A DNA stretch of 64,000 nt from positions 434,001-498,000 of the forward strand of contig JAFCMP010000555.1 of the NCBI GenBank assembly GCA_017506865.1, given 5' to 3'. Source of the stretch: Tribonema minus. Its lineage: Eukaryota > Sar > Xanthophyceae > Tribonematales > Tribonemataceae. Both the position numbers and the translations under genes were made by a program. Positions 655-64,000 of the stretch are shown piece after piece. Under the pieces are notes generated by a model. It saw only the letters and a list, made by a program, of their open reading frames with translations, did no database searches and was not told the origin of the DNA. How positions within the stretch are numbered: position 1 is the first letter of the stretch; every line of letters begins with the position of its first letter.

Positions 655-1145
655 TCGACAGATACGCTGCGCGCACAGGCGGCCTGTGCGGCGCTGGCCA
701 CTTGCGTGCACGTTTATGTTTGCGCCCATCTTTTGTGACCTGACTCTGCACGGTTCTCGCTGCGCGTCTGCCGCGGCGCCACCGCCGCCCCCATATACGA
801 CGCGTGGAGAGGTGGCCAGGGCGAGGCGCTAGCGGGCGTGCGGCGCCTCCTCAACCACATGCATGCATACACATGTATACAAGTACCCATATATTGTGGT
901 CTGACTCTGCATGGCTGTCGCTGTGCTTTTCTTGCTATTGCAATGCCGCCGCCAGATACGACGCGCGAAGCGACGGCCTGGGAAAGGCGCTCGCGGGCGT
1001 GCGGCGCCTCCTCGAGCGCAAATGTACATACTTAGCCATGCATTGGAAAGTTTCACAAATATTAGGTATGGTTTGAGGCCACGGACGGCCTGGGAGAGGC
1101 GCTAGCGGGCGGGCGGCACCTCCTCGCCTGCAAATGTAACACTCA
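655..1145 (+). repeat. exon-echo array before exon 1242-1461
   Basis: Four degenerate direct copies of the acceptor region and first part of the exon at 1242 lie here, at about 655-705, 740-860, 905-1030 and 1068-1145. Each copy keeps the stretch that encodes GEALAGVRRLL in the real exon, and two keep the flanking intron text ending CTCTGCACGG. All stop near the RRLLDRF codons, so each is only the 5' part of the exon. Divergence differs between copies. They are intronic and carry frame breaks. Confidence 0.8.
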
Positions 1146-1241
1146 TCCATATACATTAGACAGATTCACAATGTAGAAGTATCAGATATGGTTTGAGGCC
1201 ACAGATCTCACTCTGCACGGCTCTCGCTGCGCCGCCGACAG

Positions 1242-2819
1242 GTACGACGCGCGTAAAGACGGCCTGGGGGAGGCACTCGCCGGCGTGCGGCGCCTCCTGG
1301 ACCGCTTCCAGTCCGCGGGCTACATTGTCGGCTACAAGCTGCAGACGGACTCCATCGACGCGGCGTCGTTCACGGACGGCGCGCCGTGCGCGTTCACGCT
1401 CGTGGTGGACCTGGAGGCGCCGCTGGCGGCCAAGATTCGCCTGGACTATGAGGGGTACAAGGTGGGGGGCTCATGTCAGTGTTGTTAGGGTTAGGGTCTG
1501 CTCCAGGGATTGCATTGGGTCTGCAGTCGGGGTTCAGAGTCAGCAACTTCTTTAGGGGTTTTAGTGTACGCTCGTGGTGGACCTGGAGGCGCCGCTGATA
1601 GCCAGGATCCGCCTGGGCTACGAGGGGTGCAAGGTGGGCGCTTGTGTAAGGCTCAGCCGGGCCCTCATGCGGGTGCCATCGCTGCGTACCTGCGCGCCTG
1701 CGGAGCGCTGGCGTGCCTCGCGGGCTAGCGTCGAGCTTCACCCATCGCTCTTGCGGCCCTCTCCAGCGCCCGAAGCGCGTCAAACGCTCTGCCGTCTTGC
1801 GTGATGGCACGTGACGGTCAGCCGCCAGCGACTCTCAGGTCGCTGCTTCTCACATGAACGCACATGTCACGCGGTGGCCCACCCGTCTCCGCTGAGCACT
1901 GCGCAGGCAATGCTGCCAGACCTCGTCGCGAACGCCGTCGCCGAGTAGGTACCTGCGCAACTGCGACGCCGTCGCGCGCTTCATGACTTAGTGCGCCCAC
2001 CCACCGCGTGTCTTCAACCGCTTCTCGAGACGTCAAGCGCGCCAAAGACTCTCTCCTCGTGGTGCTGCAGCGTGACGCGAGGATCGGTTCGTCCGCATGC
2101 CATGGACTCTGCCTCAACCACATGGAACTGAATCAAAAGGTCCTAGAGCTCTAGGTGACAGAGTGTGGTTGGCCGCAAATGCCTTCCACCAACGAACAAA
2201 CACAATCTTGCAACGATAGCACGTGCTGGCCATTCTGACCGCTGCCGCAGATGATGCTGCCGGACCTCGTCGCGGACGCCGTTGCCGAGTACCTGCGCGC
2301 GGCTGCGGCGGTGCGGCGCGCATCACGAGCTACTGCGCTCACCCACCGCGCGTTCAACCCTTTCTCAACATGTCAAGCGCGCCAAAAAATAACTTCGTTC
2401 GCATGCCATGGACCCTGCCTCGGGCACATTGAATCTCACAAGAATGTGCCCGTGCGCTGCTGCGCAGGCGATGCTGCCGGACCTCGTCGCGAACGCCGCC
2501 GCCGAGTACCTGCGCGGCTGCGGCGCCGTTGCACGCTTAATATGCTCCCCACCGCATGCTCAAACCTTTCCCCGCGTGCCGTGGGCTCTGCGTGGAACAC
2601 ATATAATTCTGAAAGAAAATATGCATGTGCTGGCCTTGCTGAGCTCTGCCGCAGGCGATGCTGCCGGACCTCGTCGCGAACGCCGTCGCCGAGTACCTGC
2701 GCGGCTGCGGCGCCGTCGCGCGCTTCACGAGCTACTACCTGGACGACGCGTACCGGCCGCGCGCCGAGGACTACCGCCCCGTGCAGACGCTCATCGAGTG
2801 GACGCTGGAGGAGCAGTAG
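1242..2819 (+). CDS. unrecognised protein, 3' end of gene (two exons seen)
   Basis: Two exons join in phase. Exon 1242-1461 (acceptor GACAG, donor AAG/GTGGGG) encodes 73 residues running YDARKDGLGEALAGVRRLL to IRLDYEGYK. Exon 2655-2819 (acceptor GCCGCAG) encodes 54 residues from AMLPDLVANAVAEYLRG to IEWTLEEQ and a TAG stop. The exon at 1242 begins one base into a codon, so at least one upstream exon exists, but I could not find it in bases 1-650. The protein is acidic with amphipathic helix-like stretches, and I do not recognise the family. Coding status is supported by clean splice sites, phase agreement and strong GC bias. The intron carries echoes of both exons. Confidence 0.6.
1567..2545 (+). 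repeat. exon-echo array within intron 1462-2654
   Basis: One copy of the 3' end of the upstream exon plus its donor lies at about 1567-1650. It keeps the LVVDLEAPL codons and the AAGGTGGG junction. Three copies of the 5' end of the downstream exon, with its GCAG acceptor, lie at about 1905-1990, 2245-2345 and 2460-2545. The copy nearest the real exon is the most similar. Copies contain stops or base changes. Confidence 0.85.
2127..2194 (+). repeat. dispersed repeat family R1, copy 1
   Basis: This unit starts GAATCAAAAGG and runs through TAGAGCTCTAGGTGACA to TGCCTTCCACCAA. Related copies lie at 8962-9115 (opposite strand, one and a half units), 16248-16310 and 56221-56320. No coding potential is visible. 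It may be a short non-autonomous element, though no terminal repeat or target duplication is clear. Confidence 0.7.
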
Positions 2820-4166: not shown

Positions 4167-7100
4167 ATGGTACGGCAAGGGTTCAACTGCTTGTCGTTTC
4201 TGCTGCTGCGCGCAGCCCTCGTGCAAGGCCATGGCTACATCGTGCAACCAGCAGCACGCAATCAGGTGGCATCGAAAGCACCAGGAGTAAATGGCTACAT
4301 CGAGTATGCCTCGTGAGTACACTATGAGACACGGCGCCGGTTTTGACGGCGGCAGGTTTCGCTGGTCCTTGCAATGCACCAAACCGTTGCTGGCGCGTTC
4401 CAACGATCGCATGAAACAGCAAACAGCTCCATGCAGACCTGCAGCTAATCAAAGTTCTGGTTGAACGTCAACGGCTATGCGCTCGTTGTAATGGTGAACG
4501 CATCCTGCACTTCTGCCTCCATGATACTTGAAAAGTACAGTCTTGTCAAAACCTGTTATGCCTTCACAATACTGCGAGCACCATCATGAAATGTCGCGAG
4601 CAAGGGCAGATCTCCACATGGCAGGGCTCGCACATGACAGTGACTGGCATGCTTGCCAGCTGACTGCCTTTGCTGCTGCTCTTGCCTCACCGGCGGCACA
4701 AAAATCTGCCCAGAAAGCCCTACGGCTTGCGCCCGGCGCATGGGAGCCACCAGCTTTTGGTAATGGTATGTCGGTTCTCCTGCCTTGCTTCAGCGGCGGC
4801 AGCGCTGCGCAGAACGCCGAGAGGTCAATGAAAAGTGACGCCATGTAGAATATTATACCTTGACCGATGACAAGTGACGCTGGGCCATGACATATACCTT
4901 GACAAGTGATGCTACATAGGCCTATCATACTTTGCCCATCAGCTCATTGCCCGTGTCGGTATTGCGGAGTGCTGGATGACCAGTGCCGCCACGCTGCTCT
5001 ACTCATCAGCTCATTCAATTAATTTGGCTGTATATGTTGCTTTCTTTTGCCCCCGCTGCGCCGGCGGCAGCTCCGCGTAGAACGCCCAGGGCTCAATGAC
5101 AACTTATGCCAGGCTATTATACCTTTGCCATCAGCTCGTTGCTCGGATATCGATTTCTCTTGCCCCGCTGCACTGCCTCGACCATCAGCCTGTTAGTGAG
5201 CTCACTACGCGAATTGATTTCTCTTGCCCCCGCTGTGTCGCCGGCAGCTCCGCGCAGAACGCCCAGCAGCTCACCAACCTGTGGCGCGACGCCAAGAAGG
5301 GCTTTGCGCTCAAGGTGGACACCTCGCAGGCGGCCAAGCCGCTCGTCGAGATCAACAGTCCGTCCACGAGCAGGCACCTGGCGTGCGGCGATCCCAACCA
5401 GGCCAAGCCCGTGACGAGCAACATCTACACGCTCAGCAACGACCACTACAAGGTGAGACGGCGACGCTGTGGGGCTCAAAAATGTACCCGATGCAAAAAT
5501 CACGAATGTTGTCTTTACTCTTGGCGTGGGAATGTGATGCATGTAGTGCGAGTTTCCCCCGGGGGCGCCGTGTAAGGCTATCTGGCGTATATGCGAAATG
5601 GACATGTGGTCTTGAGGAAATTCATGCGTTTCATGTGACTCTTGCAGATGCGATCTGTACTGCACAGCGTGCATTCCTTCCCAGCTGCGTTTGTGCACTC
5701 ATGCAGTACCACTGCAGCTGCCCCCCCAACCGTATGCAGCCCCATGGGTGTGTTCAGATGACACCAGTTGGGCTACCCCAGTAAGTGCTTGGGCAGCACC
5801 TGCTGCGAGATGCCGCATGTCCTTACCGAGCCGCTGGAAATCAGCGCTCAACAAGTACATTTATGATGTGCACAGTCAAGGCCCGGGCCCACGTCACATT
5901 CAGAGCAGGCCTGCATCACATGTAGAGGCTGAGCACTGGGACAGGTGTGCTCGTATTAGTTAGGCATGCGCCTTCAGGTCGCGGTCGCTGACAGCACTCT
6001 GACGGCACTGAAGCGCTACCGCATCTGCCTGATTGCCGCGAGCCATGAGCCCACATCACTGCTGAAGCACTACTGCTCCTGCCTCATCGCCGCTAGCCAT
6101 GAGCCCGCCGCTATCGCATGCAGCAGCGCTCCACAAACCATAGCCGCAAGTTGTCAGAGACTGACGAGCCCCACGAATTCCACGTGGCATCCCTGCAAGC
6201 TGTCAGCGTCCGATGTGACCGCGCACTCCGCATTAAATTCTGCAAGTTGTCAGGGACTACTTAGTGCGCCCTGTGAAGTCCACATTCAATCCCCCTGCCA
6301 ACACGCAACAGTATTATGTACCGCACGCAGGTGCCGCAGAACTCCACGTTCACCACCAGCACGATCGACATCCAGATAACCATTGAGGTGCACCACGAGG
6401 GCCACTTTGAGTTCTTCCTGTGCGACGTGGGCGAGACGGGCACGGTGACGCAGGAGTGCTTTGACAAGAGGGCGCTCGTGCGCGCGGCGGACGGCTACGC
6501 GAGCCCGCCGTCGCCCGTCGACGCCGCGTACCCTGGCAGGTGCAGTACATGCATACCCTATGCTGTGCTTGCATTTTTACACTCGTGCTTCGAGGTATAC
6601 CCCAAGGCAGGTATGCTACATGCCATATGTTGTACTTGTACCTTGAAGTATGGCATTCGCCGTCGCCCGTCGACGCCGCGTACCCCAGCAGGTGCAGTAC
6701 ATACATAGCCTATCCTTTGCTTGTATTCTTGTACTTATATACCCCGACGCAGGTATGCTACACCTGCCACGTGGTGAAAATGTAGGTTGAGTTATGGTAT
6801 TCCGCCATCGCCCGTCGACGCTGCGTACCCCGGCAGGTGTGATGCATACCGTATGCTGTGCTTGTAGTAGTTTGCCTTGAACCCAAGGCAAATATGCTAC
6901 ACTACACTATAGTCAAGGCAGGTATGCTGCATACATGTGCTGTAGTTATTTCTTGCCTCAGAGTATTCCGCCGTCGCCCGTCGACGCCGCGTACCCCATA
7001 GCGCACGCCACATGCCATACTTTGTGTCTGCAATGCGTGCGTGCTGGCGTAGTACAGTGTTTGGTGCAGTACATTGGTGGCCATGTACACGCTGCGTTTC

Positions 7101-9618
7101 AATCTGTGCGTGGTCCTTACTCTCGGCAAACCGTCACTGTCACTCAGCAGCAGCAGGCAGCAGCGCTGAGTCACCCAGGCGTGCAGTTCGCCATCCACTT
7201 GCGCACAGCGTCCTGGAAATCGTCAGCACTGACACGTTAGTGCACATGGGCAGTTACTAGGCACTTGCATGTGCTGATCTGCCACACGCACTTGTACGCA
7301 CTGGCGCAAGACCCGCAGCAGCTGCGTGCCACAATGCACTGAGCCACCCCCCCCCCCCTTCCCCCGTCCCCAGTAGCCAACTTGAAGTTCTCACTTAGCT
7401 CAACCCATGACTCCCCGAGCAGGGTTGACCCTACCACCACTACTACTGAACTATCCACTGGCACATTCTGCAAGCACCAAGCTGGCTACACACTCACACT
7501 GGGGCACAGGCTGCCTCTGATGCAGCGGTGACCTCAATGTGCCAGCGACACAGCGGTCACCTAGCCGATTTTTTGCACACCCCGTACCCCCCCCCCCCCC
7601 CCCCCCCCCCTCTACCCCCCCCATTCCCCCCCTGCAGGTACTACATTGGCGCCTTCTGCAGGGGCCAGATGGACAAGTACTCGTACACGGTGCGCTACAA
7701 GCTGCCGGCGCTGCAGTGCGCGCGCTGCGTCCTGCAGTGGCACTACATCACGGGCAACGCGTGCCTCGTGCCGGGCGCGCGCGCCTTCAATGCGGCGTGG
7801 CAGGGCTGCGCCCCCAACAAGCAGGCCTCGCGCTTCCCCAACCTCCCCGACTGCGGCGGGCAGCAGGTCACAGAGGAGTTCTGGTGAGCACAAACTCAAG
7901 TTCAACCCCTCGAATTTGGCCCCAAACCCTAACCCTGTACATCGCAAAATGGGGTTGGAGGGTCTCTTGAGACGACCTCCCCGACCTCTCGGGCTGCAGC
8001 GGGCAGCAGGTCACGGAGGAGTTCTGGTGAGCACCGCCCCTGAGTTCAACACGTAACACCGGCCCCAACTTGAAGCCCTAACGCTGTTACTCCTGGAGAG
8101 TCTCTTGGGACGCCTTTCCCCAACCTCCCGGACTGCGGCAGGCAGCAGGTCACGGAGGAGTTCTGGTGAGCCCCGACCACGCGCCTATTTGTTATTACTA
8201 CTTCGAAGTAATTGCTTCATCTTACGTAGCCCCAAGTCCTCACCCCGAGTCTTAAAGGCGCAGACGCTGCCGCTGTTAAACAGTCGCTGACCCCTCCCAC
8301 GTCTTGGACTGCGGCGGGCAGCGGGCCACAGAGGAGTTCTGGCAAGCGCCACTCTCTGAAGCAATGGGCTGATGCCGACGGCTTGACCGATCTCCGTTCT
8401 GAAGCGTAACCCGAGTTTGCCAGCGCTTTGTTCGCCCTAAACTCTGACCCTAACCACGCAGAGGTCGTCAGTGTCATAAAAATCTCTTATAATGACTTCC
8501 CCTACCTCCTGGAGTGCGGCGGGCAGCAGGTCACGGAGGAGCTCTGGTGAGCACTGACGTTGATTACGCCTGATCAACCTGACGTTGCCCTGGACCCTAA
8601 TCCTGACTCCTATGTCTTTGTCTACACCTAGCCCTGGTTCCTCACCCTGAAGCACCCGGAAACCATCACTGCTATAAATGAAGTTTTTCTCGGGAACATG
8701 TTCCTGACCTTCCGAACGGCAAGGGACAGCAGGTTGCGGAGGGGTTCTGGCGAGCTCTACGCGTGAGCCGCGCCCTCGCATCATCAGTCAACTGCCGGCC
8801 GCTGTTGTGTCTGGGCACATTTACATCATCAATCTGCAGCGATGACACCGCCGCCTCGGCCCTTGGTGCCCCCTCCCCGACTGCTGGCAGCCGTTTTGTC
8901 TGACGTGTGGAGCGGCGCTGCCATGCACACATGTATTGCTTGACTCGTCGCTAATTGCCGCAGCAACGGCGACCACGGTCATTGGTGGAAGGCATGTGCG
9001 GCTAACCACACTCGTGGCCAGTTTGATGCAGCAGGGCAACCACGGTGATTGGTGGAAGGCACTGGCGGCTAACCACACCTTGTCACCTAGAGCTGTACGG
9101 TATTTTGAATCATTTTCATGCCTTGTTGCTGCGCGCTCTCCAGGAACTGGGCGGGACGTTGCTATCCTGAACGATGGCATGTGCGGCACGGCATAAAAGG
9201 CCTCAAACCTAACCCAAACCCTACTCAAGTACTGCTAGCAGGCTGGGTCTTAGTGGAAACATGTGTTTCATGCGTTTTGTTACAGCGAGGTATACTCTTG
9301 TGCGTACTTCAAATCTCATCAGAAGCAGACCGTAGCCTCATATAAGCGCGCGCTTGCGTGCTCCTCAGGAACTGCGCCGATGTCACCATCTCGAACAACG
9401 GCATGTGCGGCTACGGCGCTCGCGGCAACGGCACCTGCGCCACCAAGGGCCAGTGCTGCGACAAAAACGGCTACTGCAGGAAGTGCGCGCGCAGGGCGGC
9501 GGCGACGCTGCTGAGCGGCGAGCAGTCAGATTTTGAAGTTGAAATTGAACCTGAAGTTGAAGTTGAAGCTGAACAAGAGCAGGGTGCCGCGCAGTCCAAT
9601 CTACGAGCCGTCGTGTAG
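4167..9618 (+). CDS. secreted lytic polysaccharide monooxygenase, AA15/chitin-binding type-4-like (LPMO1)
   Basis: Five exons (4167-4312, 5248-5452, 6331-6539, 7638-7883, 9369-9618) join in phase to give 351 residues. A hydrophobic signal peptide (residues 1-21) ends before HGYIVQPAARN, so the mature protein starts with the histidine that LPMOs use in the copper 'histidine brace'. RHLACGDPNQ (His about 92) is the best candidate for the second histidine. HHEGHFEFFLCD, CVLQWHYITGN and the Cys pattern match the beta-sandwich core of AA15/type-4 chitin-binding proteins. The last exon has a hevein-like Cys cluster (MCGYG...NGTC...QCC...GYC), which suggests chitin binding, then an acidic VEIEPEVEVEAE tail. 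The enzyme would oxidatively cleave chitin or a related glycan outside the cell or in the endomembrane system; the substrate is inferred. Start chosen as the only Met giving signal peptide plus His1. Confidence 0.88.
4660..5120 (+). repeat. exon-echo array in LPMO1 intron 1
   Basis: Degenerate copies of the intron 1 acceptor and first codons of exon 2 (real junction CCGGCAG/CTCCGCGCAGAA) lie at about 4660-4720, 4785-4850 and 5040-5120. The last two share a further downstream block ending TATTATACCTT, so the duplicated unit was longer than the exon fragment. Confidence 0.75.
6655..7005 (+). repeat. exon-echo array in LPMO1 intron 3
   Basis: Three direct copies of the 3' end of exon 3 lie at about 6655-6705, 6800-6845 and 6960-7005, after the true junction at 6539. 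Each keeps CCGTCGACGC-like codons and the GTACCC end; the first two retain a GCAGGTG-type donor. Spacing is about 140-160 bp. Confidence 0.88.
7587..7610 (+). repeat. poly(C) tract before LPMO1 exon 4
   Basis: An uninterrupted run of about 24 C, followed by further C-rich text, leads straight into the CCTGCAG acceptor of exon 4 at 7638. It probably acts as the polypyrimidine tract. The matching position before LPMO2 exon 4 is also C-rich on its sense strand. Confidence 0.8.
7975..8890 (+). repeat. exon-echo array in LPMO1 intron 4
   Basis: At least five direct copies of the last 40-60 bases of exon 4 plus its donor lie at about 7975-8035, 8108-8172, 8290-8345, 8495-8550 and 8700-8760, with a very decayed sixth near 8870. 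They keep GGGCAGCAGGTCAC and GAGGAGTTCTGGTGAGC in various states. Two retain a perfect TTCTGGTGAGC donor. Spacing grows from about 140 to about 207 bp. Confidence 0.92.
8962..9115 (-). repeat. dispersed repeat family R1, copy 2 (one and a half units)
   Basis: On the minus strand a full R1 unit (9115 down to about 9025) is followed by a partial unit (about 9015 to 8962). Both contain GCCTTCCACCAAT and ACCGTGGT blocks shared with the copy at 56221. Confidence 0.7.
9131..9192 (+). repeat. exon echo before LPMO1 exon 5
   Basis: One copy of the exon 5 acceptor and first codons: CTCCAGGAACTG, later CCTGAACGATGGCATGTGCG. It resembles the real exon 5 start at 9369, and a telomere-like tract (about 9200-9225) lies between them. 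Confidence 0.8.
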
Positions 9619-24926: not shown

Positions 24927-25330
24927 CTGTGGACAGCAAGCAGGGCATGCTGAGGTGAGCGCACCTATAAAGCTAGGTGCTGCAAAGAGTTCTAGACATC
25001 AGCGAATAATTGCTGCTGGCCACAAGCAAAGTGCTGGAGCAAGCGGCAAGGTGCGGGCAATTTCCGCGCTAGAGTGCACCGGAGCAGTACACTCTGGCCA
25101 ACGACCGTCACGCTTGAAGTTCCTCAGAGCAAACTTCAAGTCAAAACGGGAAAGAGCAAACCGTCAAACACGCTCTCACCTTCCCTCCTCCAGCACTGTT
25201 CGCAGCCTTGTCCATCGGGGTGACGCCTTCGACCTCACCCTCGCGCTCTTGTCACCCATCCCACACGGTCCATCTCAATACCAATGTCAAGTCGTCACCC
25301 AAATGATGTCAAGGATGCCCAGATCCACGC

Positions 25331-30035: not shown

Positions 30036-30039
30036 AGCA

Positions 30040-35404: not shown

Positions 35405-35435
<31 letters not shown>

Positions 35436-37138: not shown

Positions 37139-37397
37139 TTCGATGGCGGAGTGGAAACCAGCACGAGGCCCGAGATGGTCCGCGTACTGCAGGCCACCAA
37201 GGACTTCCCTGTAGGCGATCTGCCACTGCAAGAGGAGCCCCCTAGGTTTACTAATGATCTCCCTATGGGTCTTGTCCCCAGGTTCGTCGTCCTGCCGAAT
37301 AAGAAGCAGCGCGAGAGTATGGGCACGAAATATCTCAAGCACGCTGCCCCACGGGTCAGGAGACTAAACAAAGCTGAGGTTTTACGCCTTGGGTGTT
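37139..37397 (+). pseudogene. partial decayed copy of the SMYD-like SET N-terminus
   Basis: The + strand reads RVLQATKDFPVGDLPLQEEP, ...KKQRESMGTKYLKHAAPRV, which aligns with RVLQATRDFAPGDLVLREEP, ...EKREQFFDMHHLKYGEAAV of the gene starting at 36671 on the other strand. Only the first ~85 codons are represented; no NHSC, post-SET or MYND part follows. The two lie head-to-head about 470 bp apart, so this is an inverted partial duplicate of a host gene. Confidence 0.75.
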
Positions 37398-37399
37398 GA

Positions 37400-52300: not shown

Positions 52301-55300
52301 TCAACTGAAGTGCCTATTTCACACAGGGAGTACCCTGAAGCACGTACAGAAACGCGGACTCCGACTCTCACCTCGCTGCCGACCGTGAGTATAAACTGGT
52401 CGTTGTTGAGGTCAGCGGCTTGCGGCATGTTCATGTGGTGGATCACGGAGAGCGTGCTTGAAGTGTCGGACAGCGCCTGGAACACGCGCCGCGCGGCGTG
52501 TATGCGCGAAACCCCCGCGGGGGTCTCCAGCAACGCAAAGACGGCGGGGCAGCCCGTGCCGAGCATCGCCAGCGCGTCGTCGCTCTCCGTGCCCTGCAGT
52601 TACAAACAGTCACATACCCGTCAGTTGAAGTTACAGCTACCAGCAGGCAAGGACGCCGGGGCAGCCCGCGCCGAGCATGCCAGCGGTCGTCGCTCTCCGT
52701 ACCCTGCAGTTACAAACAGTTACATCCGGAAGTTGCAGCTGTAGCGCCCTGCAGTTACAGACAGCTATTTCAGTTATAGTCTCCAGCTGTGTCAAAACAG
52801 AGGGGGGCAACCCGCGCATCGCCAGCGCGCCCTCGTTTTCCGTGCCCCCCTGCACTAACAAGCAATTACACCCGTCAGTTGCAGTTATAGTCGCCAGCGC
52901 AAGAGGCGGGGCAGCATTGCCTGCATGTACCTGACTTTGATCGAGAGCGCCAGCCGCAAAACGCTTTCTAATACTGTACAGCATCTACACAAAATGACAG
53001 GAGGTACTGTATGTATCTGACCTTGTTTGTGAGCACCACCCGCAATACCCCCTCCGACAGCTCCACATTGGCTCAACGTAACACTGTCTGTCATGTGTGC
53101 AAGGTACTTCTACCTGAGTTTGATTGAGACCACCAGCCGCGATACCCCCTTGTCCGATATCCTGTCCGAAGGACATGACATGAGGTACGTATCTGACCTT
53201 GGTAGCAAGCACCACCCGCAGTCCCCTTCGGCAGCGCCACATGTGCTTCACAACATCACGACTCCGATACTCCTTTGAAACAAAACAACTGGAGGTACGA
53301 ACATTCAAGAATGTATCTGACTTTGACCGTGAGCACCACCCGCAGTACCCCCTCCTGCAGCTCCACCTCGGCTACACCTAGCCATGACATGGATGCATAT
53401 ACTTCCATCTAGCTGTAATTGAGAGCAATACTCCCTCGTCCGACACGCCATCCCAACGAAATGACATGAGGTGTGTATGTATCTGACCTTCACTGTGAGC
53501 ACCGCCCGCAGTACCCCCTCAGGCAGCTCCACCTTGCCCCCCGCAGCTGCCCAGTCCTCCAGCGACACCACCGCCAGCGAGTTGGGCAGCGGCGAAGCCT
53601 TGAGCGCCTCAATTGGTGCCAGGACTCCCACGCCGACCTGTGAAAAGATATATTGGCAATTTACTTTGTTGATTAGTGGACTTGTGGCTGTGAAAAAGCA
53701 TATCTAGGTGAAAGTTGAAGTAACGACAGAATAAAAGTGATGCATGCATGCATGCTGCTGTGTTTCAGCCATGTTGAACGAATGCTGTGTTTCTGCCAGG
53801 CCTTCGCAGTGAAGGAACGCTGGGTTTGAGCAGTGCTGCGAGGTTTGGCAACAGCGAGAGGTGGGCAGCGGCGCGGCCTTGAGCGTCTCTATGGGCGCCA
53901 GGACCCCCACACCGACCTGCGTAGAGGTGCGATAGTGGGTTTATCATCAGCGGGCTTTCGGCCGTGAGGACAACAAATTTACTCTGATGTTGACTTAGTG
54001 ACAACACAAAAGTGATGGTGTGTTGCCGTCAGATCTTTGCGGTGAAGGAAAGGAGCGCTGCTGCAAGGTTTGGTAGCGCTTGCTCGCATTCGTGAGTGGA
54101 GGGATCGGCTTCACAGGAAAAAGGACGGCAATTAGTGGACTTCTGGCGGCGACGGCGCAAGACACGCCAGTGCGGTCATCGGCTTCACAAAATGGCAGTA
54201 CTTCATGCATGTCGGCGATGCCACGGGACAATGACCCAACAATCCGTCAAGAAGTGTAATTTGTACTTCCGTGATGATTGTCTGGCTGCCCCGCACCGCT
54301 TTCCAGGCACAATGGACACTGAGTCATTGTGTTAATCAGTGACTGTCCCTCCCTGTACCTCCGGCAGCGCCGTGCGCGCTTACCGCGTGTTAACTGACAA
54401 TGCCGACATAGCCACTTCACATTATATTGTGTCCTGAACGACCACTATTCACCCGACACATCCACAATGCGTTGCTTTCAAGGCACAATGAGCGTAAATC
54501 AATGTGTAACCGCCAGTAACTGCCATCGTACATACCTCCTGCAGCCGCCGCAGCGCCGTGCGCGCCTGGCGGTCGTCAGCGGGCGGCACCTCGCGCAGGA
54601 AGATGGAGTCCACCGTGGCAATGTCCTGCGCGCGCGTGAGCAGTGGCAGCAGCAGCAGCGCTCAAACCGCAATCCATATTAATCACACAACAACGTCACT
54701 GTGGTGTGCATTGTGTGTGTTTGTTACGGCGTATCCATGGAGCCATGTCACCGTTGCAGTGCCCTCCGTGCGCACCCGACAGCAGCAGTTGCAGCAGCAG
54801 CGCTCAGATGGCAGTCCATCTCAAATCACACAAAACGGCGCATGCGGAGGGAGTTGCGCGTGCCCACAGCAAGCTTGCAGCCCAGGCGGTTTTACAGCAG
54901 GTCCGGCTGCGCGAGGTCCTTCAGCGCTGAGCGCTGCTACGCACCAACGACCGTCACTGCATACTCTGGAGCATCGCCTATCATCACCGTAAAGAAGTTC
55001 GAAGCTCCAGTGCACTCGCCTTGAAGGGCATGCCCACAGCGAGCTTGCGGCCGAGGCGGCGGTACAGCAGGTCCAGCTGCGCGAGGTCCTTCAGCGCTGA
55101 GCACTGCTACATATCACCGCTGCGTACCGAGCCTCGTCTATCATCACCAACACAGAAGTCAAAAGCGTCCGTTACACTCACCTTGAAGGGCATGCCCACA
55201 GCGAGCTTGCAGCCCAGGCGGCGGTACAGCAGGTCCGGCTGCGCGAGGTCCTTGAGCGTCACTGCGGAGAGCACGGAGCCATCGCGGTGCAGCACGCCCC

Positions 55301-58300
55301 TGATGTCCACGGGGTCCGCGGCCTGCGGACACAGGAAACGTGATGCGCCTTGTTAAGGGGTTGAAGACAGAACATGCTTATTAATGATGGAAACGCGTGT
55401 TGCAGCACGCCCCTGATGTCCACGGGATCGGCGGCCTGCACACACCGGAAAGAAAACGCGGTGCTGAGTTCCGAATATGCTCAAGAATGGTGCAAACACG
55501 TGCTTCTCAAGAATGGAACGGAGCCATCGCGGTGCAGCACGCCCCTGATGTCCACGGGGTCAGCAGCCTGCGCACGCAGGAAGTATAACACGCCTTATTA
55601 AGGTGTTGAATAAAGAACTTGCTTCTTCACTTGGGTGCAGCACGCCCCTGATGTCCTCGGGGTCAGCGGCCTGCAGACACAGGAAGCATGACACACCCTA
55701 TTAAGGTGTCGAACACAGAACACGCTTTCTAACAATGGAGCCGTCCAAACCACGCCTTGTCACCTATCACCTGGGGCTCTACGATCTTTTGACTCGTTTC
55801 TGTAAGGTGCTGCAGACCTCAGAATGGATGGGCTTTGTCAAAGGCGCACAGAGGGGGGGGGGGCGAGAAGCCCGGCGCAGTGCAGCCAGAGCCCCAAGCC
55901 AGCTTAGCCAAGGACTGCTGTTGTTACCAGGAAACATCAGTATTGATTTCACTATCATCAATACTAGCAAGGGCACGCAGTCAGACCGGCTAACTGACGC
56001 CGTCAACAACCTTGCCGGACAAGGAAAACTTCAAGTACTTAAGTAAGCAGATGTGTTCATCACCTGCTGCGATGGCAGTTCCCCGCGGCGGCGCTCGAAC
56101 GACTGGAAGTTGCGTGTCGTCTCCGTGAACTCGGGGACCGCAGTGTACGCAGCCACATCCTCGACCTGCGCACACCAGCGCAAAAATAATCAGGTGGTTT
56201 CACTTGCAGTAAAAATGGAGACGAATCAAAAGGTTGTAGAGCTCCAGGTGACAAGGGGTGGTGAGCTGCAAGTGCCTTCCACCAATAACCGTGGTCGCCA
56301 CTGCTGCAGTCATTGGCCACGAGACAAGCAGTGCCATCATATCCCAGTAGTCAAAGACTTCTGTATTTAAGCTTGTCAGCGTTCGAGGCAGCATGGGTGT
56401 TCAGTATGGAAATGTCTCCATGATTGTTTCAAGAGGTGTGTTGAACTTGGGAACCGCCCTGTAAGCAGCCACATCCTCCACATGTGTGCACCAGTGTGTG
56501 TCCACCTCCGAGCACTCTCTGCTGGTTGGTTGCGCCTATAACCAGTGCCGCACAAAATCCTGGGCAGCATCCGCCTGAGGCGCTTCACAAGATGGGAGCC
56601 TGCTACATTCTGCCATGGATACAGGTGGATCAAACATCATGGTGCATGCACATGGTCCGTGACGCCGTATTGCTGCTGCATGGTAGGCGCAAGCACGTTA
56701 AGAGGCACCTTCTGCTTGCCAATGTCGGCGAGCGCCTGGCAAAACAGACATCATGGTGCGCGAACATGGTCAATGACACCGTTTCGCTGCCATGAAAAAA
56801 TTGTGTTAATAGGCACCTTCTGCTTGCCAATGTTGGCAAGGATCTGGTAAAACAGGCATCGCGTTGCACACACAGGGTCGATGACACCGTTCTGCTGCGA
56901 TTAGGGCAAGCATGTTAATAAGCACCTTCTGCTTGCCAATATTGGCGAGCGTCCGGCATGGCTCCAGCTCAAACTCGGGGTCCTCGGTCAGCGACACGCG
57001 GATCGTGTCGCCTAGGCCGTCCTGCAACACACACGCATAGCAACAGCACGCAGTGCTGAGTGGAGAGTCACGTTTTGAAGTAAGCAAAATCCAACTCAAC
57101 TTCGGGGTCCTCCGTCAGCGACACGCGGATGGTGTCGCCCAGGCCGTCCTGCAGTGCACACAGAACAGCAGCAGCACGCAGTACTGAGCGAAGCGTCACA
57201 TTTGCATGCAGTACTGAGTGGAAAGTCACAGTTGAAGTAACCAGAATCCAACTAAAACTCAGGGTCCTCTGTCAGCGACACGTGTAAATGGTGTCACCAA
57301 GGCCGTAATACGACCCGCCTGTGTAACCCACTGGGTTGATGCGAAAATCGGCGCCTGCCTGAATGCCAATACAAAGAGTACGTGCATACATGCCTACCTG
57401 CAGCAGCGTGCAAATGCCGATGGCGGACTTCATGCATATAAGTTGTGCATACAGACTAGTATGCTGTCCATACTACATACGTACTCATACACGTGCGCAG
57501 ATACATGCGCACATACTTGCAGCAGCGCACCAATGCCGATGGCAGACTTCATACGTATATTCTATATTAGGCATATATACCAGTATGCTGTCCATATTAC
57601 ATACTTGCCTATACGCGTGCACAGATACATGCGCACATACACGCAGCAGCGCGCCATCGCCTACGGCGCACGTCATACGACCGGCTTGTGCAAGCCACTG
57701 GTTCGCTGCGAAAATTGGCGCCTGGTCAAATGAAACACAGGTACAAAGAGTACATGCATACATACATACCTGCAGCAGCGCGCCAATGCCAATGGCGGAC
57801 TTCATGCGGCCGTCCTCCCCCTCGCCGGCCTCCGTGACCCCCAGGTGCAGGGGGTAGTCCCACCCACGCCGGTACTGCAAGACAGGAAGCATTGGGACGA
57901 GGGTGAATATCAGGGGGTAGACCCACCTGCAACTGCAATGGTTGACCACAACAGAGGGAAAGTGCGAGTGTGTCACCAGGTGTGCGTCTCTCGGCACAGA
58001 TCGCTCTCCAGCTCGGACATTGTCAAAGCGGCTGCCTCTACGTCCAAACAGGGCCAGCACGCAAGTCGAGATCAGATGACTGTTGGCAACTTGGACAAAA
58101 CGTAGCGTTGGGGTGCGTGATTCCCAGCTGAAGGGAGGTAGTCCCACCCCTGGTGATACTGCAGTACACGCAGCATTGAAGGTCTAATTTGCTAGCAGGG
58201 CATCAATGGCTGAGATATACTTCTAGTAACTCGCAGGCACCACTGCAGACAGTAACTGTGAATCGCGGTGTGCACCTAACCCTATACCTACGCATAGCTG

Positions 58301-61300
58301 CGCATTCAACAGAAGAGATAGTCTCACCCGCACCATTACTGCGATGCACTCAGACGCAGCGACAATATGACCAAGGAATGTGTGACGCGAGGTGTGCGCG
58401 AGTCGGCACAGAGAGGCATTCATGACATGCGAGCGACCAGTGGGTTGACCAGGCGGAAGGCCTATACCGAAGGAGATGACATGGCCATCACTCCATTAAC
58501 GTCATTGGCGTACGGCTCTGCCGCCAAACCCAAACACTTACCCTAATCCTAACACCAACCCTAATCCTAACCCTATGTTGTGAGTTGCCATCGCCCGCGC
58601 GAAGCGAGTGTTCATATCATGTTACCACCTGTTCAGTGCGAGTACTCTTGCGCAAGGTTCCTGGTGCGGAACATTCCTCGCCTGCTGTGCAGCCGCTGCA
58701 CGTACACCGTCGCCAGTAGGTCTGAAGCCCACATCCGAACAGGAGCATGCTGTCGCCTTCCTCACCAAGAACTTTCCTCAGCATTTTCCTCACCTGTTCC
58801 GCGGCAAGCAGCCTGCACCATGACCCTAACCCTCACCCAAGCCGCCACACGCAAAGTGATTCATAGCAGATGTCTTTTATCAGATGTTTTTCAGGGAATT
58901 TAACGCCTGTTCGCCAGTAACTTGCTTCAGCATTTTCCTCACCTGTTCCGCGGCGAGGAGCCGGTACGCCTGCACCATGACGAGCGGGTTGGAGGCCTTC
59001 ATGGAGAAGACAAAGTTGTGGTAGTTGAGCCCCCTGCAGATTTCCGCAAACTCCACCGCGCTCTCCACCATGCCGCGCGGCGTGTCGCCGTAGTAGCTCA
59101 GCACGCGCGCCGACAGCGACCCTGTGCAGCAATTACGAGGCAGTTACAAGTCAGTTACAAAAGTTTACTGTCAAACTAGGCATCTTTGCAAACTCCACGG
59201 CGCTCTCCACCATGCCGGGCGGCGTGTCGCCGCAGCAGCTCAGCACGCGCGCCGATAGCGACCCTGCAAGCGAGGCAGTTACATGGCAGTTGCAGATCAG
59301 TTCATGGCAATAACAGGTCAGTTACAAAGTTCTAGGCAGATCTCCGCAAACTCGACTGCGCTCTCCACCATGCCGCGCGGCGTGTCGCCGTAGTAGCTCA
59401 GTACGCGCGCCGACATCGAGCCTGCGAGCGAGGCAGTTACATGGCAGTTACAGGTCAGTTACGAAGTTTCAGGCAGATCTCCGCAAAATCCACCGCGATG
59501 TCCCTCATGCCGCGCGGCGTATTGCCGTAGTAGCTCAGCACGCGCGCCAACAGCGAGCCTGCGGGCGAGGCAGTTACATGGAAGTTACAAACCAGTTCAT
59601 GGCAAGTCACCATGCCGCGCGGCGTGTCGCCGTAGTAGCTCAGCACGCGCGCCGACAGCGACCCTGCATTCGAGGCAGTTACATGGCAGTTGCAGAGCAC
59701 TTCATGGCAGTTACAGGTGAGTTGAAGTTTTATGGCAGATCTCCGCAAACTCCACCGCGCTCTCCACCATGCCGCGCGCCGTGTCACCGTAGTAGCTGAG
59801 CACGCGCGCCAACAGCAAGCCTGCGCGGCAATACGTAGCAGTTACAATCACTTGCAGAAGAGATCACATTGCCAGCCATGCCCAGAGCCATGCACTTTGT
59901 AATCAGGGGGGGGGGCGCAGCACCTCCGCCACTGCCAGTTTACCAATCCACTTTGATAGCTTAGAAGTGCACTCACCGTGGTTGGTGCCAATGCGCATGG
60001 CTGTCCGCATATGTCTTGACTTACAGAGACGATCAACCCTCATCTTGATAATTCCGCGAAGTGCGTACATACAGTGATGACGTGATCAAGTACTTCAACT
60101 TGAAGTATGCTGCAAGCGCTCACCGTGGTGGTGCCAAAGCGCATGGCCCTCCCCAGGCCCCTATATAGAAGTGTCATAGTGATAATCATTGCATTGAAAG
60201 TACATACCTCAATGACGCAAAGAAGTATTTGAAGTAGTGCTTTCTTTCAAGCATTTGGCTTATTTGCAAGTTATTGTTGCTGACAAAAGCGCTCACCGTG
60301 GTTGGTGCCGATACGCATGGCCCTCCCCAGGTCCCTGCACTTCACTACCAGGGGCTCCAGCACCGCCGCAATCTCAGGAATCTCCGCGTCATACTCCTCC
60401 TTGCTCTCATATACGTACCTGCACACAAATGACACGAGGCGAAGCTGGGAGTGAGCGCACCGCGCTTTCATTGATTACCAATCAGTTGTCGTGCAAGAGG
60501 AGGTTCGTGGTTTGCTGAAGAAAGCTGTCCCTCGTTTGTGGCGTGGCGTGCCGCCTGTACATCGCTGCACTGCTGGTTACCGCACACACGCAATCACGGG
60601 CGCGTGGTGGTGGGCCCGTCCGCAAGGCCGCGAGTATAAGCAAAGGCGTGAGCGCACCGAGGTTCTGGTACGCGGGATGCGATGAGCGTCATCATACTGC
60701 GAGATGCGCGCGCGCGGAAAGCGCTGCTGCGGTGCAGCCGTGAGTCGCGTATTTGAGGCAGCCTGATGAGTCCGCCTGGCGCTGCCACATGCTATGAAAA
60801 TGTGACCGCCGCGCCCACGTGCTGCGGTTGGGCCAGACTCACCCCGCAACGCGTGCACTTCAACTGCAACCTAGATGAAAGTTCAACTTCAACTGACAGT
60901 TTACAGGCCGCGCACGCGGCAACAGCATCACCATCGGCCATGCATCAATGCCGCTGAGCGCTGCCGCGACGGGCTCACAGAGGAGCGTCACTCACTCGCC
61001 AAACGGTCTTGCTCATGCGCTGTCATGTCGCAACAAGAGACTTGCAAAATGTCGCATCTTTGTTGCCAGTGTGCATAGACTCAGTTGAAGTTGGGGCCGT
61101 GTAGGAGCGTCACTCACTCGTCAAAGGTCTTGCGGCCGTCGGCAAAGTTGCCGGGGTTGATGCGGATCTTCTCGAATGCGTCCGCAACCAGCATGGCCAC
61201 CTGCGCCAGCGCGAACGGGGGGAACAAGGGGGGGGGGGGGGGGGGGGGGGGGATGGGTCAGAGTACGGCAGCGATGCTCAGCGACATGCCAAGCTTGCCG

Positions 61301-64000
61301 AGCAGCAGACGGTGAGATCGTACAGGCCATGATACAGGCAGGTTGGTATACATACATGTACGCATAGGTACAGCATGGCCACCTGTGTCGCACGCGCCAG
61401 CGAGAACGGGGGGGGAACACGGCGGGGTCAGAGTACGGCAGCAATGCTCAGCGACATGCCGTTAACAGAGTGTGCGTCTGCCACCAGCATGGCCACCTGT
61501 GCCGCGCCAAATGAGAGTGGGCAGGCGGGGACAGCGAACGTTGAGGTCATACAGGCAGGCATGCGTGCATAGGTACAGTATACAGTATGCAACCTGCGCC
61601 AAGTCAGCGAGAATGGGGGGAGCAAGAGTGTGTTGGGAGGGGGGGTGCACAGCGGCTTCGGAACAAGACAGGTGTAAAAGTGGTGGTGCGTGCTGCTGTC
61701 CAGCTGTTGAGGAAAGGATGCAGCTCCTACAGTTCATGCGCAGCGGTACACACGCTGGGGTTGAAGTGGATGTCCGCCACGATGGGCATGTAGCTCTTCT
61801 TGAACAAGCAAGAGGATACGACTTCTTCAAGAGCAACGCACCCTGGGGTTGAAGTGGATGTCCGCCACAATGGGGATGTCGTAGTTCTTCTTGAATAGCT
61901 GGTCGCGCACTTCCGCCGCTGCTTCCGCCTCCTTGTTGCCCTGCAAATAAGGAACATCGATCATGCAGTCAGGCCCGTGAGACGCGTTGCTTCCGGGACA
62001 GAGCACACGGCTTAGGGTGAGGGTTGGGGTTAGGTCTTGAGTGCACCGCCGGATGCCAGACACACGCACTGAGCCCAAAGCGGCTCATGACGTCTTCGAC
62101 TAGTAGTGTAGCGGCTACTTCGAAATGATTGCTGTATATGTCACAACAGTGTTGAGCGGTGCGGCATCTGAACCGTGATGCGTACAGGGTGTGCACATGC
62201 GTACATACCTCAACAGCGTCATCCACATCAGCAGTTTTCATCTAAAGTTGAGCGCTGACGCACCTGAACGGTGATGCGCACGAGATCCGCGCCGGCGTCC
62301 GCGCACCGCATGACCTGCAGCGGAGGTGGCAGCGGCAGCAGCAAACAGGGTCATCAGGCTTTTTTTGCGTCACACGCGGTAGGCGAGCGCGCGCAGCAAC
62401 ACCCTCCCCAGTGGCACTGAGGAGTTTCAGCTTGTGTACGCCAGTTGTAGAAAGTGGCGCATTTTGTACTGTGCTATCGTGGTGATGATTAGCAACAAGA
62501 CTCTGATAGCTGCGGCGGAAGAGAGCAAAGCGGTAATGGACTGTAACTGACACAGCCCGACGCAGCAGAGCCAATTGCGGCCAAACAGCTGACTGCAGCC
62601 GACTTAAAAAACAATCGAAGAGTATGAGTTCTTGCAAGGGCCACAAGTTCAACATCAACTGGTGGGGTCTACAGCATGGACACACTGCCACCATCGCTTA
62701 TAACAGGACCTTGAGTGCTGGTATCATACTAGGGATGACTAGCCAAGAAGCAAGGGCAGCATACAACGTGCAATGAGCTGCAAATGAGCGCCGTCGCTGC
62801 AGCCTTGCCAGCATGAATGGCGGGTCATCACTTATGGCGCTGCGCTACCGCAAGGCGCCAGCCCAGACACAATTTCAATGAGCGCCAATGGCAGCGTCTC
62901 TCAAGTAACCAGACCCTGACCCTATCCCTAACGGTATCCCCCTCCTAACCCTAAATAGAACAGCTACCAAGCGCTGGGCGCGCGGTCCTCAACGGTGCCG
63001 TGCGTGTAGCCATGAGAATTGTCGAGTCGGCCGTCGAGCGTTGTGCAAGCACACATGCGCCACCGACGCCCCGGGCACAGCTTGCAGCCTGACCATTGCG
63101 GCAGCATCATCAGAACACAACGGCCACGCTGCTGCTACATGCGAGGAGCGCATGTAGTCAGTATGTATGCGCGCTGTGGTCATTTCAGTCGCTGCGCGCT
63201 CGCGCCGTCAATCGTTGGAGTACCACAACATGCCGTGTGCGCAACGCGCCGCGGCGCGCTGCAACGAGCTGTACCCGCCCCTGCGCGACTGAAATGCCAA
63301 TGATTTGTTGCCGCGATACGCAACGCAACCGCACAAAAACCTTGACACTTTTTGACACTGCTACAAAACAAAGCTGAAAAGCGCTCAAGGCCGACCAGCT
63401 GCACAGCAACGAGATGCGACTGACTACGTGCCTGCCCCATCACTGCCGCCGCATTGCAGGCGTCCACAGCGGCCATTGGCTACAGCGCTGCGACGTACCG
63501 CACCCGCCCCTGCGCGACTGAAATACCAATGATTTGTTGCCGCGATACGCGACGCAACCGCATATGCACATACATACGCTCACGCGCGTGCGTGGCCATC
63601 CGCGGCATACGACGCGGCGGGGCGGCGGTTCTGCGAAGCACGCAACGCGATGCTGTGCGCTCGGCGCCCGCCACCGCGTGTACACGACCATCGCGCTGCT
63701 GCTGCGCCGTGCGGCAACGCACCGCGCTCCTCGCGAGTGCACCTACGTATCATAGTCAGCGCCCGTACATAAACAGCTCGGGGACAATGTTAGCTATGGG
63801 TCAAGCTACCTAGGGTTAGGCTAGCTAACCCTAACCTACCTGGTCGACCGTCGCCGCGACGTTGCGCGTGTCGGTCGTAGTCATGGTCTGCAGCGCAATC
63901 CTGTGCTCCGAGCCGATGGGCACCTTCCCCGCCCACACCGTGCGCGTGGGCCGACGCCGCGTTGCCGTTACGCTCTCGCAGTACTTTGTCATCTGGTCCA
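49396..64000 (-). CDS. ispG: 4-hydroxy-3-methylbut-2-enyl diphosphate synthase, plant-type (5' end outside window)
   Basis: Sixteen minus-strand exons: 64000-63840, 62314-62264, 61940-61842, 61200-61118, 60418-60297, 59121-58943, 57874-57770, 57021-56926, 56165-56064, 55322-55182, 54625-54536, 53637-53488, 52593-52372, 51708-51529, 50795-50664, 49542-49396. All phases agree, giving about 685 residues and a TGA stop. It converts MEcPP to HMBPP in the MEP pathway, normally in the plastid. Signatures: [94 protein letters not shown] (two Fe-S Cys) and [13 protein letters not shown] (third Cys). The segment from [12 protein letters not shown] to the CPSC exon is the extra A* domain of plant and some bacterial enzymes. 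The usual NGPGE reads NGVGE. The transit peptide would lie upstream of the window. Nearly all introns carry exon echoes. Confidence 0.97.
49715..50000 (-). repeat. exon echoes before ispG last exon
   Basis: A near-exact copy of the last exon's acceptor end lies at about 49715-49750 (CTCCTTGCCCACGTAGAGGT). A second, partial one lies at about 49965-50000. ACTTCAAGTGAAGT palindromes flank both. Confidence 0.85.
50480..50620 (-). repeat. two exon echoes after the GCIVNG exon of ispG
   Basis: Copies of the 3' end of exon 50664-50795 plus donor lie at about 50568-50620 (CTCACCTTGCCCGGCGGGCC) and 50480-50530. Both retain the GTCCGCCATC or GTCTGCATCT block. Confidence 0.88.
51275..51355 (-). repeat. 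exon echo after the CPSC exon of ispG
   Basis: A diverged copy of the 3' end of exon 51529-51708: GTCGAACAGCATGCGCCGGC parallels the real GTCAAACAGCGTGCGCCCGC. Confidence 0.8.
51811..52180 (-). repeat. exon echoes before the CPSC exon of ispG
   Basis: A ~95-bp copy (51811-51905) reproduces the first half of the exon so well that it still reads [20 protein letters not shown] before running into intron. A second, decayed copy lies at about 52118-52180. It could be mistaken for an alternative exon, but lacks the catalytic CPSC part. Confidence 0.92.
52640..53440 (-). repeat. two opposing echo arrays in one ispG intron (52594-53487)
   Basis: Two to three copies of the downstream exon's start (GCAGCCCGCGCCGAGCAT, GCCCTGCAGTTACA) lie at about 52640-52715, 52740-52770 and 52800-52870. 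Six copies of the upstream exon's end plus donor (GTGAGCACCACCCGCAGTAC and variants) lie at about 53400-53440, 53320-53375, 53190-53245, 53105-53160, 53015-53070 and 52926-52965. The intron is almost filled by the two arrays, which meet near 52900. Confidence 0.92.
53850..53922 (-). repeat. exon echo before ispG exon 53488-53637
   Basis: A ~70-bp copy of the exon start still reads [20 protein letters not shown] against the real [20 protein letters not shown], then diverges. Confidence 0.92.
54351..54385 (-). repeat. exon echo after ispG exon 54536-54625
   Basis: A short copy of the donor end: TACCTCCGGCAGCGCCGTGC against the real TACCTCCTGCAGCCGCCGCA region. Confidence 0.65.
54850..55100 (-). 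repeat. two exon echoes after ispG exon 55182-55322
   Basis: Copies of ~85 bp lie at about 55017-55100 and 54850-54930 (CAGCAGGTCCGGCTGCGCGA block), both ending in the word CAGCGCTGAGC. In the real exon the corresponding position reads CTTGAGCGTCAC, so the word was joined on during or after duplication. Confidence 0.9.
55398..55685 (-). repeat. three exon echoes before ispG exon 55182-55322
   Basis: Copies of the exon start (GCAGCACGCCCCTGATGTCC exact in all three) lie at about 55398-55445, 55520-55580 and 55635-55685, each with a CTGC acceptor end. Confidence 0.92.
56221..56320 (+). repeat. dispersed repeat family R1, copy 4
   Basis: The longest unit: GAATCAAAAGGTTGTAGAGC through GTGCCTTCCACCAATAACCG to CTGCTGCAGTCATTGG. 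It lies in an ispG intron, opposite to the gene. Confidence 0.75.
56440..56850 (-). repeat. exon echoes in ispG intron 56166-56925
   Basis: One copy of the downstream exon's start lies at about 56440-56497 (GTAAGCAGCCACATCCTCCA). Two copies of the upstream exon's end plus donor lie at about 56810-56850 and 56698-56745 (GGCACCTTCTGCTTGCCAAT exact in both). Confidence 0.9.
57095..57680 (-). repeat. two opposing echo arrays in ispG intron 57022-57769
   Basis: Downstream-exon starts lie at about 57095-57155 and 57245-57310 (GTCAGCGACACGCGGATGGT). Upstream-exon ends lie at about 57641-57680, 57508-57555 and 57397-57440 (GCAGCAGCGCGCCA and variants, followed by GCATAC-rich text that is itself repeated). 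Confidence 0.92.
57895..58345 (-). repeat. exon echoes before the WDYPLHLG exon of ispG
   Basis: Three progressively decayed copies of the exon start (real text GGGGGTAGTCCCACCCACGC) lie at about 57905-57930, 58130-58165 and 58315-58345. Confidence 0.75.
58545..58576. repeat. interstitial telomere-like tract
   Basis: Five CCCTAA-like units (CCCTAATCCTAACACC, CCCTAATCCTAACCCTA) lie inside the same intron. A further CCCTAACCCTCACCC lies at about 58823, beside an exon echo. Confidence 0.85.
58750..58825 (-). repeat. exon echo after ispG exon 58943-59121
   Basis: A copy of the exon end and donor: CAGCATTTTCCTCACCTGTT, CCGCGGCAAGCAGCC, CTGCACCATGA, matching the real junction at 58943. A shorter CACCAAGAACTTTCCTCA piece lies just before it. 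Confidence 0.9.
59180..60165 (-). repeat. largest double echo array, ispG intron 59122-60296
   Basis: Five copies of the downstream exon's start, including its acceptor side, lie at about 59180-59265, 59340-59425, 59480-59565, 59610-59665 and 59730-59825. Each keeps most of CTCCACCATGCCGCGCGGCG and the GTAGTAGCTCAGCACGCGCG block that encodes [11 protein letters not shown]. They are followed by the repeated intron words GGCAGTTACATGGCAGTTGC. Two copies of the upstream exon's end plus donor lie at about 59967-60010 and 60117-60165 (GTGCCAATGCGCATGG). Several are over 90% identical to the exon by eye. Confidence 0.93.
60982..61020 (-). repeat. exon echo after ispG exon 61118-61200
   Basis: AGGAGCGTCACTCACTCGCC and the following AAACGGTCTTGC copy the real donor junction at 61118 (AGGAGCGTCACTCACTCGTC). 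Confidence 0.9.
61228..61252 (-). repeat. poly(C) tract (sense strand) before ispG exon 61118-61200
   Basis: About 25 consecutive G on the + strand, i.e. C on the coding strand, lie about 30 bases upstream of the acceptor at 61200. Probable polypyrimidine tract. Confidence 0.85.
61371..61815 (-). repeat. opposing exon echoes in ispG intron 61201-61841
   Basis: Two copies of the downstream exon's start with acceptor (CAGCATGGCCACCTG) lie at about 61371-61420 and 61476-61520. One long copy of the upstream exon's end lies at about 61730-61815 (GGGGTTGAAGTGGATGTCCG, CCACGATGGGCATG). Confidence 0.9.
62919..62957. repeat. interstitial telomere-like tract
   Basis: Degenerate CCCTAA units (CCCTGACCCTATCCCTAACG, later CCTAACCCTAAA) lie in the intron between the first two ispG exons of the window. 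A second tract at about 62010-62036 and a third at 63810-63839, directly at the donor of the first visible exon, are similar. Confidence 0.8.
63267..63560. repeat. ~70-bp direct repeat, 222-bp period
   Basis: CCCGCCCCTGCGCGACTGAA and the following CCAATGATTTGTTGCCGCGA occur at about 63274 and 63501. They are not exon-derived as far as I can see, but have the same spacing as the LPMO2 echo units. Confidence 0.85.

Follow-up and report, generated by a model that had tools for sequence, protein, structure and literature searches.

Same-strand copies of exon ends in the introns of six modelled genes

Genes of the locus and their exon echoes

The stretch of DNA analysed here (the window) is 64 kb long and has a G+C content of 56.5%. 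Exon anchors and the reading frame were used to model six spliced genes in it: gene A, two AA15-like LPMO genes (LPMO1 and LPMO2), gene B, an old-yellow-enzyme gene (OYE) and IspG/GcpE; a Smr-like and a SET/SMYD-like gene lie outside the model set. In LPMO1, LPMO2, OYE, IspG and gene B, joining the exons gives an open reading frame with the coding sequence intact, and the proteins of the first four are above the Pfam cut-off. GC3 is 0.87, and acceptors have the form GCAG/G. The main test set consisted of the 30 introns and 60 junctions of five genes (A, LPMO1, LPMO2, OYE and IspG). Gene B was added later and is counted in the probe-side, circular-shift and exon-masked tests only, and the acceptor of gene A exon 1242 is outside the 60 counted junctions. 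All 30 introns are GT-AG introns, 323-1988 bp in length, with a sum of 27,645 bp.

We use the term 'echo' for a same-strand copy of a flanking exon end and its splice site within the adjoining intron. The echo search found 81 alignments, of which 74 include 12 nt of exon or more and were kept (7 with less were dropped). These echoes, 42 donor-side and 32 acceptor-side, are located in 24 of the 30 introns and at 37 of the 60 junctions: in 1/1 introns of gene A, 3/4 of LPMO1, 1/4 of LPMO2, 5/6 of OYE and 14/15 of IspG. Gene B has echoes in 2/2 introns and at 2/4 junctions, with scores of 70 and 34. An earlier note on this DNA had ascribed echoes to every spliced gene, with the possible exception of the Smr gene. 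All six modelled genes do carry them, although LPMO2 does so in only one of its four introns.

Gene A (640..2819, + strand) gave no Pfam match; its known exons are 1242-1461 and 2655-2819, and an upstream exon was not found. Acceptor echoes precede exon 1242-1461 at about 725-1125 (655 by eye). A donor echo is present at 1568-1638, and the acceptor echoes before exon 2655-2819 are at 1656-1727, 1891-1986, 2216-2334 and 2453-2538, all on the + strand. Gene B (11424..14257, - strand; exons 14150-14257, 13095-13266 and 11424-11566) has a MauE match below the Pfam cut-off, a donor array at 12865-13070 and an acceptor echo at about 13329-13394, both on the - strand.

LPMO1 (4167..9618, + strand) is an LPMO_10, AA15-like gene with exons 4167-4312, 5248-5452, 6331-6539, 7638-7883 and 9369-9618, matching Pfam LPMO_10 at 1.2e-14 and the AA15 structure PDB 5msz at 3.1e-8. 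Its echoes, on the same strand, are acceptor echoes in intron 1 (4794-4827 and 5037-5095), donor echoes in intron 3 (6658-6730, 6802-6864 and 6968-6996) and, in intron 4, five donor echoes (7978-8034, 8116-8171, 8307-8342, 8496-8554 and 8717-8755) and one acceptor echo (9130-9192); the echo search gave none in intron 2. LPMO2 (17330..23044, - strand; exons 22893-23044, 21646-21850, 20865-21067, 19565-19804 and 17330-17576) matches LPMO_10 at 9.5e-19. The search gave no echoes in its introns 1-3, and the donor echoes of its last intron (19332-19375, 19011-19060, 18794-18838, 18571-18620 and 18357-18401, - strand) sit in a 218-bp tandem array at 18194-19187. Long C or G runs lie close upstream of acceptors at 7587-7622, 19807-19861 and 61228-61252, and such a run is found near the acceptor in the third intron of LPMO1 as well as in that of LPMO2.

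OYE (40065..46023, - strand) has seven exons and matches Pfam Oxidored_FMN at 7.7e-74. Its acceptor echoes are at 45405-45450, 42279-42340 and 41511-41585, and its donor echoes at 44882-44963, 43995-44029, 43812-43897, 43754-43801, 43633-43709, 42806-42888, 42666-42716 and 42010-42062, all on the - strand; the echo search gave none in intron 6. IspG/GcpE (49396..64000, - strand), with 16 exons and 15 introns, runs off the window and matches Pfam GcpE at 3.3e-116. It is probably of the plastid type, like the plant protein, which together with the GC3 value and the acceptor form hints at an alga. Examples of its donor echoes, on the - strand like all that follow, are 61748-61804, 60114-60162, 59969-60009 and 58762-58824, and also 54858-55096, 51286-51371, 50436-50603 and about 56631-56850. 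Donor arrays are found, for example, at 52989-53368 and about 57390-57683, acceptor arrays at 59188-59860 and 55401-55739, and acceptor echoes at 52640-52903, 51811-52174 and 49715-49788. Scans of viral and of prokaryote contigs with LPMO and IspG pieces found no relative.

Several other features of the window were observed. At E 1e-3 the only direct arrays outside genes are 25324-26299 and 29594-29937; the former is a 478-bp tandem duplication, 95% identical, without a modelled gene. An inverted repeat of ~0.55 kb and 71% identity (46767-47290 / 47733-48295) is likewise without a modelled gene. To judge from translations, the first coding stretch of the SET/SMYD-like gene seems to be inversely copied right next to it, in degenerate form (36460-36670, - strand, and 37150-37390, + strand); the SET match falls in a neighbouring stretch. 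The 7-mer ACTTCAA/TTGAAGT occurs 76 times in the whole window, where base composition predicts ~6, and its density is similar across exons, introns and the remainder. CCCTAA/TTAGGG hexamers are scattered (35 in the window) and resemble telomere repeats inside a chromosome.

Specificity and anatomy of the echo arrays

The claim that introns hold same-strand copies of exon ends withstood both the comparison with shuffled introns and the self-comparison of the window that the earlier note had proposed. When each exon-end probe was set against 30 dinucleotide shuffles, matches in the probe's own intron passed at 20 of 30 donors and 16 of 30 acceptors, or in 24 of 30 introns, whilst reverse-complement probes passed at only 1/30 and 0/30. 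Exon-only probes of 50 nt found their best match in their own intron, ahead of each of the 29 others, at 18/30 donors and 17/30 acceptors, and the own intron scored best on either side for 23/30 introns. Self-comparison by blastn yielded 103 repeat pairs in direct and 12 in inverted orientation, and 101 of the 103 direct pairs were no more than 3 kb apart.

The copies are also confined to one side of the exon, as the earlier note had described. For exons of at least 100 nt, probes scored 32 or more on the expected side at 30/51, with echoes of the upstream exon following its donor and those of the downstream exon preceding its acceptor, and on the wrong side at 0/51. Copies of exon ends therefore lie on the downstream side alone, and copies of exon starts on the upstream side alone. 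Exonic 40-mers with a direct copy within 700 nt were most frequent (0.56) at <20 nt from a junction, and the frequency then fell to 0.42, 0.26, 0.12 and, at 80-120 nt, 0.02. Farther out it was 0.00 at 120-160 nt (33 probes), 0.23 at 160-240 nt (26 probes) and again 0.00 (2 probes); the value of 0.23, which breaks the clean fall-off, presumably reflects the acidic repeat in the tail of LPMO1. Together, these controls confirm that the echoes are real.

The exon part of an echo measures 16-89 nt (median 42) and the intronic part has a median of 105 nt; no echo covers more than 0.63 of its exon. The spacing of neighbouring copies is 88-344 nt (median 157.5), very short spacings being partly hidden from the echo search. 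More than one copy was found at 19 of the 37 echo-bearing junctions, with a maximum of five per junction. The richest intron, IspG intron 5, has seven copies (2 donor, 5 acceptor), fewer than the nine once counted for a single intron. Similarly, the description of introns as built from echoes was overstated: of the 27.6 kb of intron, the units account for ~11.6 kb (74 multiplied by a median spacing of 157), and six of the 30 introns lack echoes altogether. TRF calls some of the arrays (for example 18194-19187, 54861-55258, 56691-56958 and 59298-59589), and many were missed at score 50.

Identity falls to about the random level immediately past the edge of an echo, and the edges checked showed neither microhomology nor a motif. 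The copies of a given junction tend to end at a common exon edge, with a median spread of 4 nt compared with 29 nt expected if they were independent; of the 19 multi-copy junctions, 8 have a spread of 0-1 nt and 8 others one of 10-30 nt. In 40/74 copies (p<=0.02) the repeat extends to the intronic part of the unit; in the other 34 that part has no detectable repeat. In simulation, 60/60 units were detected at a divergence of 0.09 per lineage, and the 34/74 missing intronic repeats exceed what substitution predicts. Either deletions must have occurred or some copies did not start out as complete units. The reported tendency for the nearest copies to be the most similar was borne out, since the copy nearer the exon was more similar in 45/60 untied pairs and the nearest copy was the most similar (ties included) at 14/19 multi-copy junctions.

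A duplication model and its alternatives

We consider it likely that short tandem duplication across a splice junction, combined with a coding filter, explains the echoes. In this model, a duplication of ~0.09-0.34 kb with one end 16-89 nt inside the exon and the other in the intron would span one junction. The outer junction would still be spliced and the inner copy would turn into intron. The doubled unit may then amplify as a tandem array, its inner copies drifting as neutral DNA, and the intron would become longer with each step. Duplications within an exon, or of a whole exon, would change the mRNA and so be eliminated; those that cross a junction, or are wholly intronic, would be retained because only these leave the mRNA intact. 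Survival of the outer junction would need no special rule, as it is the only choice that keeps the mRNA unchanged.

Three elements of this model go beyond the arrays themselves: the outer junction is presumably the one used in RNA, introns would have grown by duplication rather than shrunk from longer arrays, and at the DNA level the mechanism may be slippage, end joining or unequal exchange. The earlier note had proposed growth by repeated tandem duplication across junctions. The junction-spanning units, the retained outer junction and the neutral decay of the inner copies are all supported, but many arrays look like a founding event followed by amplification rather than an independent series, given their shared exon edges. 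In the usual case, a single founding duplication across the junction seems to have been followed by amplification of the whole unit; at the 8/19 junctions with edge spreads of 10-30 nt, the differences could reflect truncations or separate events. Random breakpoints simulated on such units gave a median exon part near 60 nt and a maximum near 170 nt. The observed exon parts are shorter, and so a further filter or preference exists. Our guess is that longer or closer copies compete more strongly with the real site, which would fit both the 89-nt limit of the exon part and the absence of spacings below 88 nt.

Copies differ from their exon by 0-27% in a graded manner, and divergence along the echo lineage ranges from 0 to >0.2 (67/74 echoes with enough sites), indicating that the process ran over a long time. 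The two LPMO genes, whose joined proteins have intron positions in common, offer a relative date. Introns 1 and 3 have echoes in LPMO1 and lack them in LPMO2, and the fourth introns of both contain five donor echoes, in each case copied from the gene's own, now different, exon end. The possibility that these arrays predate the gene duplication was rejected, as the fourth introns align with each other only near the 3' end; judged from the sequences, the two donor arrays are probably younger than the duplication. The LPMO1 acceptor echo 9130-9192 carries the LPMO2 base at six of nine differing sites and the LPMO1 base at two (scored by eye). This echo looks older than those changes in the LPMO1 exon, and echoes of this kind can therefore polarize exon changes.

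A bolder alternative is that splice junctions are themselves the target of duplication, far above other DNA, through a process linked to transcription or splicing; candidate agents are R-loops, stalled polymerase, the jump in G+C at exon edges and nucleosome-sized nicking. We regard this as possible but doubtful. Merging of the 100 local direct pairs gives 41 arrays, and 34 of these contain a junction, compared with an average of 12.0 and a maximum of 24 in 5000 circular shifts; the count of junction-containing arrays is highest without any shift and drops to about half at ±100 nt. The spacing of junction copies, never below 88 nt in a search from which shorter spacings are partly hidden, also fits a targeted process. 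However, exons do not decay, so echoes at junctions stay visible for longer, and the junction excess comes partly from detection.

With exon-like sequence masked, introns contain 18 arrays, nine of them assigned to a junction by an automatic rule. The other nine are interior, although four of these (49548, 51722, 56631 and 61255), when inspected, were seen to adjoin junctions or echo arrays. The intergenic DNA, defined by exclusion (23.6 kb), contains two direct arrays. Per kb of possible start sites, this corresponds to 1.90 masked arrays at junctions, 0.36 in intron interiors and 0.085 in intergenic DNA. Within this window there is a clear contrast between genes, where repeat arrays are commoner, and the DNA between them. 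Simulated neutral duplications in intergenic DNA were detected in 60/60 cases up to a divergence of 0.11 per lineage, in 57/60 at 0.13 and in 44/60 at 0.15, rates that are overstated since the simulation uses few indels compared with real introns. The preference for junctions over intron interiors is suggestive only: the probability that nine of 18 arrays are junction-linked is 0.0008 at the full present intron length, 0.088 at half and 0.56 at one third, so chance gives such a split if introns were once a third of their length. Junction targeting was considered as the main claim, for which the intergenic scarcity first seemed strong support, until detection with exons masked weakened the interior contrast. 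Somewhat more tentative again is a lineage-wide version, a mutational hot spot at which transcription- or splicing-linked tandem duplication of 0.1-0.3 kb would act at junctions on both exon sides genome-wide, introns growing by a ratchet and each exon end keeping a dated series of its past sequences.

The decay of the copies bears on a different proposal, that the echoes are functional, serving as alternative or recursive splice sites or as splicing-tuning decoys under selection. Some echoes do retain 95-100% of the exon part. Splice dinucleotides were scored only in echoes reaching 12 nt intronward (23/42 donor and 26/32 acceptor), in which GT is kept at 41/46 positions and AG at 50/52. AG retention exceeds the intron background (154/208, P 0.0002), an excess partly explained by the fact that the real AG cannot change. 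Neither value is significantly above the exon background at neighbouring positions (178/207 for GT, Fisher P 0.81; 208/234 for AG, Fisher P 0.13). Selection on the echo splice sites had been entertained because AG looked conserved, and was rejected once reach was controlled. The splice sites of the echoes look neither purged nor clearly maintained. Mismatches to the exon fall at the three codon positions in 109/1114, 90/1122 and 199/1102 cases, a split of 27:23:50 close to the 25:25:50 or so predicted for a free echo and an exon changing only at silent sites, and in this respect the echoes decay like neutral DNA. Moreover, 110/122 gaps (intronic alignment parts included) are not a multiple of three. 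Both patterns are those of unconstrained sequence, and a functional role for the echoes is unlikely.

Mis-joined haplotypes or reads could in principle have created false tandem copies, but such an assembly artefact is very improbable given the graded differences, the tendency to common edges and the single orientation and side of the copies. Mobile introns (introners) or dispersed repeats inserted at exon ends, which share with the echoes only that repeats coincide with introns, are the least credible reading, as exon-end probes match best in their own intron over 29 others at 35/60 junctions, the copies hold the coding sequence of that very exon, and none of the 12 inverted pairs found by blastn lies within 500 bp.

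Meaning of the echoes and comparison with known systems

To our knowledge, the lengthening of introns without transposons has mostly been inferred from size statistics. Single introns of this locus keep their growth steps, with unit, edge and age readable, and the echoes are built-in fossils of coding sequence. They would also make splice-site choice testable, since consensus-like copies lie at least 88 nt from the true splice site, and the modelled coding sequence can arise only if splicing passes them over.

Among known systems, the introners of Amoebophrya (PMC7789003) form families across many genes with short direct and inverted repeats. Like the echoes they associate repeats with introns; unlike them, the echoes are private to each junction, and instead of one intron family in several genes we found own-intron best matches at 35/60 junctions and direct pairs that are nearly all local (101/103 within 3 kb). 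Nor do the copies resemble tandem or mutually exclusive exons, with no more than 0.63 of any exon copied and a reading frame broken by 110 of 122 gaps.

Tandem duplication has been described as a source of introns in Drosophila (Lehmann et al., 2010; PMC2891723). Intron gain of the Rogers type, in which an AGGT-bearing exon segment is duplicated, is alike in combining tandem duplication with the intronization of one copy. By deduction, that model should put the start of the exon at the 5' end of the intron and its end at the 3' end. Those are the wrong-side positions, at which copies were found at 0/51 probes here, as against 30/51 on the right side (exons of at least 100 nt).

Another parallel is the potato RdRp gene (Ma et al., 2016; PMC4974935), in which a single tandem duplication across a boundary gave rise to a new intron, involving a cryptic donor and an insertion of exonic sequence. 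There, as in the echoes, the tandem duplication spans one intron-exon boundary and existing splice signals are reused. Unlike that case, the present locus has copies at 37/60 junctions, up to five at each, and no new intron, the modelled mRNA being unchanged. Among the matches listed from the open-licence literature, which comprised titles and the beginnings of abstracts, there was no locus or genome with echoes at most of its junctions.

A further likeness is to internal gene duplications, which Gao and Lynch (2009), as summarized in PMC7969005, reported for as many as 17% of genes across six genomes, with a median of about 0.1 kb. On that summary, they belong to the same size class and arise by intragenic copying of exonic and/or intronic DNA. 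The echoes are likewise direct, local copies of an exon end with adjoining intron, in genes whose coding sequence is intact. Unlike in the Gao and Lynch data, as so summarized, all six modelled genes are affected here, most of them several times. The echoes are the known process of internal gene duplication, at an unusual density.
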